The notes beneath the pieces were generated by a model, which did no database searches, was not told where the DNA came from, and saw only the letters and a list, made by a program, of their open reading frames with translations. This document shows, piece after piece, positions 23,153 to 38,842 of a stretch of 50,086 bases of DNA (its first letter is position 1; each line of letters begins with the position of its first letter). The translations under genes and the position numbers were made by a program. Source of the stretch: Spirochaetia bacterium (GTDB lineage Bacteria > Spirochaetota > Spirochaetia > B11-G9); NCBI GenBank assembly GCA_027859095.1, contig JAQIBN010000278.1:1-50086 (forward strand), read 5' to 3'.

Positions 23153-23240
23153 CGGAGAAGGGGGGATTCGAACCCCCGGAACCCGGTTAGGGTTCATACG
23201 CTTTCCAAGCGTACTCCTTCGGCCTCTCGGACACCTCTCC
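23153..23240 (-). tRNA. tRNA-Ser(GGA)
   Basis: GGAGAGGTGTCCGAGAGGCCGAAGGAGTACGCTTGGAAAGCGTATG...GGGTTCGAATCCCCCCTTCTCCG; long variable arm. Confidence 0.95.
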
Positions 23241-23296
23241 TATTTTTACAAAACATTGCTAAATACAAAGGACTGTAAGTACTCGATATCCTCTCC

Positions 23297-23384
23297 CGGA
23301 GAGAGAGGGATTCGAACCCTCGGAGCTGACAAGCAGCTCAACGGCTTTCGAGGCCGCCCGATTCAACCACTCTCGCATCTCTCC
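23297..23384 (-). tRNA. tRNA-Ser(CGA)
   Basis: GGAGAGATGCGAGAGTGGTTGAATCGGGCGGCCTCGAAAGCCG...GGGTTCGAATCCCTCTCTCTCCG. Confidence 0.95.
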
Positions 23385-23400
23385 ATTAGGAAAAACCCTT

Positions 23401-23474
23401 TGTACCCAAGAGGATTCGAACCTCCGACCTTTAGGTCCGCAACCTAATACTCTATCCAACTGAGCTATAGGTAC
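23401..23474 (-). tRNA. tRNA-Arg(GCG)
   Basis: GTACCTATAGCTCAGTTGGATAGAGTATTAGGTTGCGGACCTAAAGGTCGGAGGTTCGAATCCTCTTGGGTACA; loop TTGCGGA gives anticodon GCG. Confidence 0.9.
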
Positions 23475-23483
23475 AAAAAAAAA

Positions 23484-23570
23484 CGGAGAGGGAGGGATTC
23501 GAACCCTCGGTACCGTCACCAGTACAACTCCTTAGCAGGGAGCCCGATTCAACCGCTCTCGCACCTCTCC
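23484..23570 (-). tRNA. tRNA-Ser(GCT)
   Basis: GGAGAGGTGCGAGAGCGGTTGAATCGGGCTCCCTGCTAAGGAG...GGGTTCGAATCCCTCCCTCTCCG. Confidence 0.95.
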
Positions 23571-23624
23571 AAAATAAACATACCTAAAACTAAAATCAGT
23601 ACTAAGAATAAAGCACTGATTTCT

Positions 23625-23709
23625 CGGAGAAGGTGGGATTCGAACCCACGGAACCTTGCGGTTCAATAGTTTTCAAGACTACCTCCTTCGGCCACTCGGA
23701 CACCTCTCC
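23625..23709 (-). tRNA. tRNA-Ser(TGA)
   Basis: GGAGAGGTGTCCGAGTGGCCGAAGGAGGTAGTCTTGAAAACTATTG...GGGTTCGAATCCCACCTTCTCCG. Confidence 0.95.
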
Positions 23710-23776
23710 AAAAGATAGAAATTACATTTCTATCGGTGTTCAAATATATATAAATAGCTAGTCGTTTGTCAACACA

Positions 23777-33756: not shown

Positions 33757-35583
33757 TTAAGCCATAACTTCAAGAGCTGTATCAATTCTCCCAAAAGGAG
33801 GACTAACCTGGATACCGGATATTTGGCCCTTCATCTGATCTACCAGATTCCTTGCAATAAGGATCCCTTCATTTCTTGAAGATTCCTTGGTCTCCTGTTT
33901 TTCCATCCTTTTCATGATATGTTCCGGAATAGTTACTCCCGGAACCTCATTATGAAGAAAAAGAGCATTCCTATAGCTTGCCAAAGGCCAAATCCCTGCT
34001 ATTACAGGAACACCACAAGATTTTATTCTGTCTATAAAATTACTCAATACATCCAAATCAAAAACAGGTTGTGTAATAAAGTAATCTGCACCTGCTTCAG
34101 CTTTTACGAATGCTCTCTCAATCTCTTTTTCAACAAACTGAGCTGTAGGATTAATACCAGCTCCAATAACAAAGGAAGTTTGAGAAGGAATTCTCTTCCC
34201 TCCTAAATCAATACCCCTGTTTAAACTTGAAGATAATGATATCAAACCAATGGAATCAACATCAAAAACACCTGTTACATCCGGATAATTTCCCGCTTTG
34301 GGAGGATCCCCGGTAATTGCTAGAATATTTCGTAAACCTGCAGCCTGGGTACTAAGTAGTTCAGATTGAAGACCTATTAAGTTTTTATCTCTACAACAGA
34401 TATGGGGAATAGTTTCTATCCCTGTTTTTCTGAAAATTTCAACTGCTGTAAGAAAAGCAGAGATTCTGGAAGAGGCTCTTGGCCCATCAGGTATATTAAT
34501 TACATTAACATTATGATTTATTAATTTTTCAGCTTTATTTAACACCCCTGCTAAATCAGTTCCCACTGGTGGAACTAATTCTACAGCATTAATCCAGTCG
34601 CCATTAGACAGGGCTCTTCCCAATGAAGATCTTTCAGCCAAATCAACAGGTTCTATTGAAATATCTTCCTCCTGTTTAATTGTTATCTGCTGTCTTCTTC
34701 CTCTATCCAAAGAGAGAAATGCATCTCCCATTTTTTTAATATGTTCCTGAGTTGTACCACAACAACCGCCAATAACAGAAACTCCTGCATCCAGAAATTT
34801 TAAAGAATACTCAGCAAAATATTCAGGAGAAGCCAGATACATCTGCCGGCCATCTATATCCCTGGGGAACCCTGCATTGGGCATGATAGAAAAAGGTTTA
34901 GACATCCTCCCCTGTATTTCATTAAGAATATCAAGCATATCTGCTGGACCTGTTGAACAGTTCATTCCAATTACATCAATAGAATCCTCATCATCAAGTT
35001 GCCTGAACAGATTATAATATTTCCCTTTTGGTATTTCAGACTCTTCATGTCTTAAACTTATCTGTGCCTGAACAGGAATATGAGGATTTACAGATTTGGC
35101 TATACGAGCGGCAAGAATAAGTTCATCCATATTTCTAAAAGTTTCAAATAGAAGCAGATCCACTCCACCCTTTATGAGGGCTTCAATCTGCAACCTGAAT
35201 GCCTTCTCTATATCTTCTTTAGGTGTATTCCCAATTGGTGCCATTCGAACAGAAGTAGGACCGATAGAACCGGCTACATACAGATCATCTCCAGCAATTT
35301 CCCTTGCAAGTTCTACAGACCGGATATTTATTTCTTCTGATTTTTCTTCAAGATCATAGGTACCAAGTTTTATAGGATTAGCACCAAAAGAATTAGTTGT
35401 TAAAACCTGAGCACCGGCTGCTGCCATTTTTCTATGAATACCTAATATGGTATCAGGGGATGTTAGATTAACATTTTCAAAACACTGATTAATAAATACA
35501 CCAGAGTCATAGATCATTGTACCCATAGCTCCGTCAAAAAGAAGGACCCCTTCTTTTAATTGCTCAAGATATGGCTTTCTCAC
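33757..35583 (-). CDS. Bifunctional homocysteine S-methyltransferase / methylenetetrahydrofolate reductase
   Basis: N-terminal VLLFDGAMGTMIYDSG, VIGMNCSTGPADM, VIGGCCGTTQEHI; C-terminal MetF-like ILAITGDPPKAGNYPD, AGADYFITQPVFD. Confidence 0.94.
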   Translation of the reverse strand: MRKPYLEQLKEGVLLFDGAMGTMIYDSGVFINQCFENVNLTSPDTILGIHRKMAAAGAQVLTTNSFGANPIKLGTYDLEEKSEEINIRSVELAREIAGDDLYVAGSIGPTSVRMAPIGNTPKEDIEKAFRLQIEALIKGGVDLLLFETFRNMDELILAARIAKSVNPHIPVQAQISLRHEESEIPKGKYYNLFRQLDDEDSIDVIGMNCSTGPADMLDILNEIQGRMSKPFSIMPNAGFPRDIDGRQMYLASPEYFAEYSLKFLDAGVSVIGGCCGTTQEHIKKMGDAFLSLDRGRRQQITIKQEEDISIEPVDLAERSSLGRALSNGDWINAVELVPPVGTDLAGVLNKAEKLINHNVNVINIPDGPRASSRISAFLTAVEIFRKTGIETIPHICCRDKNLIGLQSELLSTQAAGLRNILAITGDPPKAGNYPDVTGVFDVDSIGLISLSSSLNRGIDLGGKRIPSQTSFVIGAGINPTAQFVEKEIERAFVKAEAGADYFITQPVFDLDVLSNFIDRIKSCGVPVIAGIWPLASYRNALFLHNEVPGVTIPEHIMKRMEKQETKESSRNEGILIARNLVDQMKGQISGIQVSPPFGRIDTALEVMA

Positions 35584-36158
35584 CCCTTAGCCGCCCTTTT
35601 CCCCAATTCAGCAAGAACTTCCTCTATCGAAATATTTTCTGAGAGAAGAAGAACAAGCATATGGTAAATAAGATCAGCTGATTCATAGATAATTTCACTC
35701 CTACTAGACGCAAGAATAAGTTCAATGGCTTCTTCACCGGTTTTTTTCCTAATTTTTTCAGCACCGGACTGGAATAGATGTGTGGTATAGGAACCTTCGG
35801 GTAAATCTCTCTGCCTTTGAAGCAGCACTTCCTGAAGAAGTTCAAGAATACCCTGATTCCCATTAAATTTTATATCTTCTTCTTCTGAATTAAAAAGATC
35901 CCCCTGATCATGTAATGGACTGTGTTCTTTTCCAATCCTTAAAATTGCCTCATACCAGGAACTGTGTTCTGAAATATTTAACATAGATTCATCTGAATAA
36001 GGAAGAAGTCTACCTGTCTCCTTATGCAAGTGCCAAAGTTGACCCCTTTCAAGACTCTTCTTAAAACCCTTGTCATTTGAAAGAGATACTTCGAGAATCT
36101 GTCCCTGTCTGTCCTTTATGACTAAAGGCAGTATTTTATGAACTAATTCCATTACCAT
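35580..36158 (-). CDS. hisIE: HisIE-like protein: degenerate HisI domain fused to phosphoribosyl-ATP pyrophosphohydrolase
   Basis: C-terminal HisE SYTTHLFQSGAEKIRKKTGEEAIELILASSRSEIIYESADLIYHMLVLL; N-terminal HisI-like segment without DCDxD/Cys residues. Confidence 0.85.
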   Translation of the reverse strand: MVMELVHKILPLVIKDRQGQILEVSLSNDKGFKKSLERGQLWHLHKETGRLLPYSDESMLNISEHSSWYEAILRIGKEHSPLHDQGDLFNSEEEDIKFNGNQGILELLQEVLLQRQRDLPEGSYTTHLFQSGAEKIRKKTGEEAIELILASSRSEIIYESADLIYHMLVLLLSENISIEEVLAELGKRAAKG

Positions 36159-36901
36159 TTTTCTCCGTATTCATAGGATTTCTGATATTTCCCAATAGCT
36201 TTCTGCAAGTCAATTCTATTTTCATATACCGCTTTACCTGTAATAACCCCACCAATACCAGGGTGATTTAAATCAGCAATAAGTTTAAAATCATTTTCAC
36301 TGCTTATTCCTCCGGAAACTATAACAGGAAGCTTTGAGACCTCTGCTATCCGAATACTATTCTCAATATCCGGCCCTTCCAGAGTGCCGTCTTTATCAAT
36401 ATTTGTATAAATTATGCTGATTATTCCATTATCAGCTGCTTGTTTTGCAAGATCAGTATCCCTCAAAGAAGAACCTTCTTCCCATCCTGAAATTTTAACC
36501 TCACCTTTTAATGCATCAATACCTGCAATAAAATGATTTCCATATTTAGATGTCCATCTATCTGCAATTTCAGGATTCTTTGCAAATACAGTTCCAAGTA
36601 TCAGTCTGTCAATTCCTATATCCAGAAGGTCCTTAACATCAGCATCTGTTCTTATGCCTCCGCCTGTTTCAATTACTACATCAATTTTATTTCTAATCTT
36701 GCGGATAATTTCTCTGTTATTCTTTCCCCTATCACGGGCAGCATCAAGATCCACTATATGTAATCTCTCACAACCGGAACTAACCAGTTTTTTTGCCATT
36801 TCTACTGGATCTGAGGCATATGTTGTAGATTTATTATAATTGCCCTTAAAAAGTCTAACACAGGAACCATCAAGGAGATCTATTGCAGGTATTATAATCA
36901 T
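36152..36901 (-). CDS. hisA: Phosphoribosylformimino-5-aminoimidazole carboxamide ribotide isomerase
   Basis: MIIIPAIDLLDGSCVRLFKGNYNKSTTYASDP, LHIVDLDAA, VIETGGGIRTDADVKDLLDIGIDRLILGT, VIVSGGISSENDF. Confidence 0.96.
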   Translation of the reverse strand: MIIIPAIDLLDGSCVRLFKGNYNKSTTYASDPVEMAKKLVSSGCERLHIVDLDAARDRGKNNREIIRKIRNKIDVVIETGGGIRTDADVKDLLDIGIDRLILGTVFAKNPEIADRWTSKYGNHFIAGIDALKGEVKISGWEEGSSLRDTDLAKQAADNGIISIIYTNIDKDGTLEGPDIENSIRIAEVSKLPVIVSGGISSENDFKLIADLNHPGIGGVITGKAVYENRIDLQKAIGKYQKSYEYGEKW

Positions 36902-36981: not shown

Positions 36982-37010
36982 GTAGAGACAGCACGGCGTA
37001 CGTCTCATAC
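36982..37010. repeat. REP-like palindrome copy 1
   Basis: gtagagacagcacggcgtacgtctcatac. Confidence 0.8.
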
Positions 37011-37159
37011 CATATAACCATATCTATTCCAAATACCAGTGTGTCTGAGAAGATATCAATAGACCAATACGTTCAAAGTATATATCAAAAAGGGTCACTA
37101 TAAAGCATCACATTTGCAGCAACAAAAAAAGATATACAAAAGGTATGTATATGAGAAAA

Positions 37160-37187
37160 ATAGAGACGCACGCCGTGCTGTCTTTAC
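37160..37187. repeat. REP-like palindrome copy 2, inverted relative to copy 1
   Basis: atagagacgcacgccgtgctgtctttac, 13 bp beyond the RAYT stop codon. Confidence 0.85.
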
Positions 37188-37200
37188 AATAATTATCATT

Positions 37201-37704
37201 TCACCATTTAAGAGGATTATTTTTTATATATTTTCGTATTCTATTCAGTTCACCTTTATCTCTAATAACATGATCATGAAAACGTGGTTGCCAGACAGAA
37301 CCACCAGATGTATTACAATATTCATTGATTTTTTTCGTAGCATGAGATTTAAACCCCGCAACAAAAGAAGAAATAGATTTCGGTGTACGTCCATTTCCCT
37401 GTAGAGACAGCACGGCGTGCGTCTCTACAGAAAAATTATTAATCCGAACAACCCCATGAATATGGTCTGGCATAACCACAAAACAATCACAATATAATTC
37501 AGAACGTATTACAAAGGATTCGTTCCATTCATTAAAAACAATTTTTCCAATATCTGACAATTGTATTTCATACTCAATTTTCTTCCCAAAAAAATGTTCC
37601 CTGTTTTTTGTACAAATTGTTATGAAATAATATCCATTTGATGAATAATCCCAATTTTTTAATCGGGCTGATTCTATTCTGTATCGATTTTTATATAATG
37701 ACAT
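37201..37704 (-). CDS. REP-associated tyrosine transposase-like protein (RAYT, Y1/HUH)
   Basis: YYFITICTKNREHFFG, CFVVMPDHIHGVVRI (HUH), SISSFVAGFKSHATKKINE, VWQPRFHDHVIRDKGELNRIRKYIKNNPLKW; flanked by palindromes. Confidence 0.9.
   Translation of the reverse strand: MSLYKNRYRIESARLKNWDYSSNGYYFITICTKNREHFFGKKIEYEIQLSDIGKIVFNEWNESFVIRSELYCDCFVVMPDHIHGVVRINNFSVETHAVLSLQGNGRTPKSISSFVAGFKSHATKKINEYCNTSGGSVWQPRFHDHVIRDKGELNRIRKYIKNNPLKW
37401..37428. repeat. REP-like palindrome copy 3, inside RAYT coding sequence
   Basis: gtagagacagcacggcgtgcgtctctac: stem gtagagac/gtctctac, bulged a, gcac-ggc-gtgc. Confidence 0.9.
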
Positions 37705-37835
37705 TTTCTTCTCCTGTCTTTCTATTATGTATATATGGTGGAAATATGAATTTTACTTCAGGGGGATGATACTGTAACTTCTGGAGAAATACTGGGTTTC
37801 CATATTTGTTTATTTTGTTGCTATTGTTTCTATTT

Positions 37836-37855
37836 GAGAGACGCACTGTCTCTAC
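37836..37855. repeat. REP-like palindrome copy 4, centre deleted
   Basis: gagagacgca|ctgtctctac lacks the cgccgtg centre of copy 2. Confidence 0.65.
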
Positions 37856-37912
37856 GGGGGATTGGGTGAGGGGTCTATTGAAAACAAAAGATTGACCTGA
37901 TATACAATTCAT

Positions 37913-38842
37913 ATGCATACCCTAACTACCCTCATCCCAATTTTCTTTTTTCTCCTTATGGGGATTGTTTTGGCTAAAACTGGTATTATTAAATTGGTAG
38001 GCGCACGCCGTGCGGCTCTACTGGATAGGATTGTTCTTCTTACCCTTTCTGTAATGCTTTTTTTTATGGGTATTCGTATTGGAATAATTGAAAATATTGG
38101 TCAAAAACTTGTTGAGATAGGATTAATTTCTGTGTCATTTGCCTTTGCAACTGTTATAGGGACATCTGTAGTTGTTCTATTTACACTTTTTCTATTAAGA
38201 AAGGTTATACACAAACCTGAACCACATAAAGAAAAGATTCATATAATGCATCATCTAAAAGAACCTGTTTATCTACTTTTTTTAATGATTTCAGGTATTG
38301 TTTCAGGATTATTTATCCCTGTTCTAAAATCTGTAAATGGAAATATTACAACATGGCTTCTTTATTTACTTCTTTTTTTGATTGGAATACAACTGGGAAC
38401 AAGTAAAACTAAAAATACAGTATTTCAGGCATCTATGGTTCTACTTCCTCTAAGTACTGCTATAGGATCCCTCTTTGGAGGTTTGGCTATAGGAGGATTT
38501 TTCAGTCTTAGCCCTGGTGAATCTCTTTCTCTGGCAGCAGGTTTTGGGTGGTATACTCTTTCAGGAGTTATAATTACAGATATGGGAAATCCTGTACTGG
38601 GATCTGCCGGTTTTATGATAAACCTGTTCCGGGAAACAATTGCCCTTATTGCTATTCCTCTTTTAGGACGAACAAGGTTTTCCCTTGTATCTATAGGAAT
38701 AGCTGGAGCTACCAGTATGGATGTTACTCTTCCTCTAATTGAAAGATCCTGTGGAAAAGAGTTTGTTTCTTTAGCGCTGGGTCATGGTATTTTACTTTCA
38801 TTACTTGTACCTCTTTTGGTGCCTCTTTTTTATAATCTATGA
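37913..38842 (+). CDS. LysO/DUF340 family transporter
   Basis: IPIFFFLLMGIVLAKTGIIK, LLYLLLFLIGIQLGTSK, GFGWYTLSGVIITDMGNPVLGSAGFMINLFRE, SMDVTLPLIERSCG. Confidence 0.88.
   Translation: MHTLTTLIPIFFFLLMGIVLAKTGIIKLVGARRAALLDRIVLLTLSVMLFFMGIRIGIIENIGQKLVEIGLISVSFAFATVIGTSVVVLFTLFLLRKVIHKPEPHKEKIHIMHHLKEPVYLLFLMISGIVSGLFIPVLKSVNGNITTWLLYLLLFLIGIQLGTSKTKNTVFQASMVLLPLSTAIGSLFGGLAIGGFFSLSPGESLSLAAGFGWYTLSGVIITDMGNPVLGSAGFMINLFRETIALIAIPLLGRTRFSLVSIGIAGATSMDVTLPLIERSCGKEFVSLALGHGILLSLLVPLLVPLFYNL
37997..38021. repeat. REP-like palindrome copy 5, in frame inside LysO-like gene
   Basis: gtaggcgcacgccgtgcggctctac, encodes VGARRAALL (last codon continues into ctg). Confidence 0.75.

Follow-up and report, generated by a model that had tools for sequence, protein, structure and literature searches.

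How does each RAYT, one of a widespread class of domesticated transposases, keep to its own family of REP hairpins? RAYTs and REPs have been reported to co-evolve (PMC2817692; PMC8266576), and in the literature examined the contacts described for E. coli are with the GTAG foot, a bulge and a few stem positions. The question is posed by a RAYT gene surrounded by palindromes in a 50,086-nucleotide stretch of a Spirochaetia bacterium draft genome (contig JAQIBN010000278.1, positions 1 to 50,086), here called the window. A comparison of more than 100 relatives of this gene suggests that two residues of one helix, alphaC, set the hairpin sequence with which each transposase is paired.

The RAYT (TnpA-REP) gene lies at 37201–37704 on the minus strand and encodes a Y1 HUH transposase of 167 amino acids. 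Its product matches Pfam Y1_Tnp (E 1.8e-9); against NCBIfam REP_Tyr_transpos it scores 69.8 bits, below the cut-off of 80. Codons for the HUH motif, H81-I82-H83, occupy 37456–37464 and that for the catalytic tyrosine, Y159 (in YIKNNP), 37228–37230 (both minus strand), with H81, H83 and Y159 invariant across 49 sequences. The fold was predicted with a mean pLDDT of 87, and its best Foldseek match is 4ER8, the structure of E. coli TnpA-REP with its REP hairpin (E 1.5e-7). In the model, a loop that includes residues 93–102 separates the HUH strand (81–88) from helix alphaC (111–130; codons 37315–37374, minus strand), which model and covariation together mark as the putative core-reading helix. 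Residues 116–117 of this helix are AG (37354–37359, minus strand).

Scanning the whole window with the 28-mer by gapped local alignment returned exactly the five palindromes claimed in the earlier note, in and around the RAYT gene within 1.04 kb, with scores of 28, 25, 24, 17 and 14; the top score in twelve first-order Markov sequences of 50 kb was 12. The perfect copy (score 28) is inside the gene, at 37401–37428 on the plus strand, and encodes residues 93–102 (VETHAVLSLQ) in frame; these fall in a poorly ordered loop, with model confidence below 50 at residues 96–102. Two copies lie downstream of the RAYT gene: one 13 bp from the stop codon with mutated feet (37160–37187, minus strand; score 25, two mismatches) and one with a damaged right foot and a weak fold (36982–37010, plus strand; score 24). 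The upstream copy (37836–37855, minus strand; score 14) is without seven central bases, and a full copy sits at the same place in a congener contig, G003 (Spirochaetia bacterium GMC4.metabat2.27). The fifth is degenerate and in frame within the lysine exporter gene lysO (37913–38842), at 37997–38021 on the minus strand (score 17). A chance origin of the two weakest copies was ruled out by the random-sequence scores and by synteny with G003. The lysO copy is probably real, because the window gene is 15 bases longer, in frame, than that of G003 exactly there; the lysO N terminus is variable in more distant relatives, and relatives outside the genus are too variable to tell whether the 15 bases are ancestral.

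The element spans 28 bases, as the earlier note had it, but is an imperfect palindrome with a one-base bulge, GTAGAGAC[A]GCACGGCGTGCGTCTCTAC, which gives the hairpin an orientation. Its folding energy as single-stranded DNA is -9.6 kcal/mol (z -4 to -5). Only the in-gene copy is intact; the other four carry damage.

The Y1 domain, the GTAG-footed hairpins both flanking and within the gene, and the structural match to 4ER8 bear out the RAYT/REP arrangement proposed from the sequence. By its described traits, the locus is best placed as a low-copy RAYT-type REPtron of TnpA-REP subclass 2.4 (group 4; Quentin et al., 2018, PMC6006769). There, this subclass is described as a Y1 HUH group with WQ and YIxNNP motifs, here VWQPRF and YIKNNP, and with a variable insertion between beta3 and alphaC, where the window gene carries its in-frame REP. 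Its REPs are double-footed (GT[AG]G ... C[TC]AC; here GTAG...CTAC at 37401–37428) and occur in frame in the gene and as flanking copies, and inverted GTAG-footed REPs flank the window gene at 36982, 37160 and 37836. The locus differs from that description in its one-base-bulge hairpin, its near absence of dispersed copies and an HUH motif of DHIH rather than NH[IFV]H, the last a minor departure because D and N forms both occur among its relatives. The subclass is given there as patchily distributed over Cyanobacteria, Bacteroidetes and other phyla, as are the relatives of the window gene. Since double-footed and in-gene REPs are already in that published account, the suggestion of an undescribed REP family is not supported as it was put, and taken alone the locus is an unremarkable low-copy representative of a known kind; a text search for GTAGAGACG returned nothing on REPs among the papers listed. 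An IS200/IS605 insertion sequence does not fit, since it needs many near-identical copies bounded by subterminal hairpins; the other RAYT matches in the genome are partial and come from divergent RAYTs, at most 50% identical.

Other known systems resemble the locus less completely. E. coli TnpA-REP (group 2, subclass 2.2; PDB: 4ER8; PMC8266576) is the best fold match and shares the GTAG foot, but is only about 19% identical and has a C-terminal tail absent from the window RAYT. Its REPs are single-footed with an upper stem that is not read by sequence, whereas those of the window are double-footed. The GTAG REP families of Di Nocera (2013; PMC3733652) are GTAG-footed hairpins, some of them inside genes, but are high-copy, and the genes listed there as entered by them are mostly for DNA repair and replication. 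Rickettsia palindromic elements also survive in frame inside proteins, but, as far as the description cited in PMC3733652 extends, they have no tie to a transposase gene holding its own copy.

Across the relatives, many lineages share the outer stem (GAGAC), and the inner core differs. Hairpins of one locus agree with each other: the mean distance between in-gene and flanking cores is 0.06, against 0.44 when loci are shuffled (lowest of 2000 shuffles, 0.33), and this agreement holds across phyla. Core differences were then compared with differences in each protein segment. For alphaC, the Mantel correlation is 0.42–0.44, and conditioning on the remainder of the protein leaves a partial correlation of 0.37 (z 9.2); no other segment exceeds 0.16. 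By mutual information, residue 117 outranks every other column for core bases 3–5 (z 14.8, 15.6 and 11.5; next best columns 8.4, 9.2 and 7.9), and in four thinned sets, the smallest of 32 loci, it keeps first place for bases 3 and 4. Partial correlation and thinning served to control for relatedness; because thinning to below 55% identity outside alphaC left 20 loci or fewer, milder thinning was used. Residue 117 was picked after many segments and columns had been scanned, and prediction at new loci, run after the training result, serves as the guard. Trained on 59 loci, residue 117 was the best single predictor in 23 new ones (62 of 92 core bases), and residues 116–117 together gave 68, compared with 51 for the next single column and a baseline of 35.

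For 24 new loci, the nearest neighbor by alphaC had a core distance of 0.32, that by the protein without alphaC 0.46 and a random one 0.50; the whole protein did as well as alphaC (0.31), but with close relatives excluded it gave 0.44 against 0.36. The cores of pairs that share residues 116–117 but are little alike overall differ at 43% of bases; for pairs that are highly similar but have different residues there, the figure is 74%. REPs with other outer stems follow the relation in part: residues 116–117 predict 58 of 123 bases against a baseline of 38, and alphaC residues 113, 121 and 122 equal or beat them.

These data lead us to favor, as the probable reading of the locus, a low-copy subclass 2.4 REPtron in which RAYT and hairpins change together through core reading by alphaC. 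Double-footed, GTAG-footed hairpins (GTAGAGAC-core-GTCTCTAC) stand on both sides of the gene, with one inside it in a disordered loop. The RAYT protein would bind them in single-stranded DNA, cut at the GTAG foot through Y159 and rejoin the strands; over time, copies may have been placed nearby, in the flanks, the RAYT's own gene and lysO, and have survived only where they were tolerated. The inner core is probably read by alphaC, mainly by residues 116–117, so each RAYT and its hairpins would change together. The putative pairings are AG with GCAC, RG with GC[AG]A, RW with GCGATT, RS with xxxGC, GS with xxGGC and NQ with C-rich cores. The window (AG, GCAC) and the downstream REP of G003 (NQ, GCCC) lie outside the mutual information set, and both fit.

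Whether group 4 RAYTs in general read the inner stem by such a short code, REP and reader forming an exchangeable specificity cassette, we consider an even call. Because the in-gene REP adjoins the alphaC codons, the two could travel as one cassette between conserved gene ends. In E. coli, K82 on helix alpha3 contacts the stem bulge (PMC8266576); phmmer places residue 82 at residue 124 of the window protein, within alphaC, in a weak alignment (E 0.033). Because E. coli TnpA-REP tolerates replacement of the upper stem by its complement (PMC8266576), reading of the stem would be a peculiarity of group 4. PMC6006769 describes REP insertion, with no residue-to-core relation in the text examined, and none was found in the other papers searched. 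This match between RAYT and hairpin would thus be the new part, the in-gene arrangement having been described already. With a relation that predicts hairpins in new genomes, the question of pairing could be put to a direct test involving two residues and a few bases, and orphan REP families could be matched to their transposases.

Copy number weighs against a working pair. The earlier note had the transposase acting on dispersed palindromes and named confinement to the locus as counting against this; in the 4.2-Mb draft genome (89.9% complete), the places that match its 22-bp core with up to three mismatches number three, all at the locus, so by that criterion dispersal in this genome is not supported. 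Many cognate copies, as usual for a REPtron, are thus not seen in this genome, which makes present activity doubtful. The proposed search of relatives did yield copies in two congeners, two in G003, one of them beside the syntenic RAYT, and one in G004. The wider AGAGAC..GTCTCT architecture gives 19 hairpins in the window genome against 10 for a control pattern; the cores of the others differ, and no near-full-length RAYT was found in their 1.5-kb flanks. Single GAGAC hairpins with several other cores were noted on contigs C4, C34, C89, C106, C164, C175, C198, C201 and C252 (L012–L026), and such scattered hairpins, lacking a near-full-length RAYT alongside, are possible orphans of lost REPtrons. 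Elsewhere this REP class does disperse, with other cores: Calothrix sp. NIES-3974 has 304 such hairpins (control pattern, 2) and Chloroflexus islandicus 22 (control, 0). Seven other genomes have just 1 to 9 each; copy number was treated as a variable trait, since other genomes also harbor REPtrons of this class at low copy number.

The congener G003 keeps lysO (85% identity) and the RAYT in unchanged order. Identity to the window is about 80% over the first 170 and the last 80-odd bases of the RAYT gene, but the middle (HUH region, loop and alphaC) shows a poor alignment and lacks the in-gene REP. Residues 116–117 are NQ instead of AG. The downstream REP has the same position and the same mutated foot, GTAAAGAC, with core GCCCTATTAGGGC in place of AGCACGGCGTGC, that is, GCCC for GCAC, as the proposed code predicts; the upstream REP is complete and has kept a GCAC-type core. 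AlphaC and the downstream core thus appear to have changed together, which suggests continued pairing. In the congener RAYT closest to the window gene (L027, G002:C179), the protein ends in THGRASLR, as if, judging from the translation alone, a GCACGGCCGTGC-type REP overlaps the stop codon.

This joint change bears on the possibility that the locus is a fossil, its RAYT and REPs relics that no longer work as a pair in the species. The damage to four of the five copies and their absence elsewhere in the genome are what a fossil would leave, but the reading frame, the HUH and tyrosine residues and the in-gene REP are all intact, and we regard this explanation as rather unlikely.

It is also unlikely that the association between alphaC and core is mere hitchhiking, with recombination moving the in-gene REP and the alphaC codons together in the absence of recognition. 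The two lie only about 30 bases apart, the REP-carrying loop adjoining alphaC, so linkage could add to the signal. The RAYT genes are also mosaic: the two ends of the window gene are closest to G003, and the nearest counterpart of the HUH and alphaC segments is a Calditrichota gene. Flanking cores, however, behave as in-gene cores do (r 0.43 and 0.44), and no partial signal (r 0.01) comes from the HUH segment, which lies across the in-gene REP from alphaC, although this segment is also more conserved. The 18 loci with flanking hairpins only mostly follow the code; a Mantel test on 12 of this kind was weak (r 0.25, 44/999).

In-gene hairpins are frequent among the relatives. Among 103 related loci, a number that includes some duplicates, 42 carry a GAGAC..GTCTC hairpin within the gene, mostly around the middle. 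Because the first query contained the REP peptide, this selection could have been biased; queries lacking it gave 11 of 29 Spirochaetota loci and, for two sets centered on Cyanobacteria and Bacteroidota, 18 of 92 complete genes. Any GT[AG]G-footed hairpin was present in 88 of 202 complete genes. In-gene REPs are read only in frames 0 and 1; frame 2 would read TAG. In-gene REPs are not new, having been described for subclass 2.4 in PMC6006769. The GAGAC REP of L118, L121 and L124 is at about a quarter of the gene, a second tolerated REP site, and some of these genes contain a stop codon. A second REP class with outer stem GGGGC is found inside other RAYT genes (L029, L030, L032, L144, L193, L194 and L242), often encoding VGAIHESP-like peptides.

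Both feet are kept in 50 of 73 in-gene copies versus 29 of 86 flanking copies, and in-gene cores match flanking ones, as would be expected if the in-gene hairpin were kept for self-regulation, the RAYT binding its own mRNA or single-stranded gene and so limiting its expression or mobility. Coding constraint alone could preserve these copies, though, and many close relatives have no in-gene GAGAC hairpin, so the gene can persist without it; we think this explanation improbable. Short palindromes downstream of genes can be terminators, but scores far above random, agreement of same-locus cores across phyla and a position shared with G003 make chance or terminator-like repeats unrelated to the transposase extremely improbable.

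Elsewhere in the window, five tRNA genes, four for serine and one for arginine, are clustered at 23153–23710 (minus strand). At 33757–36901, hisA stands beside what by eye is a hisI/hisE-like gene, together with a 608-amino-acid protein that, also by eye, resembles a fusion of homocysteine methyltransferase with methylenetetrahydrofolate reductase.
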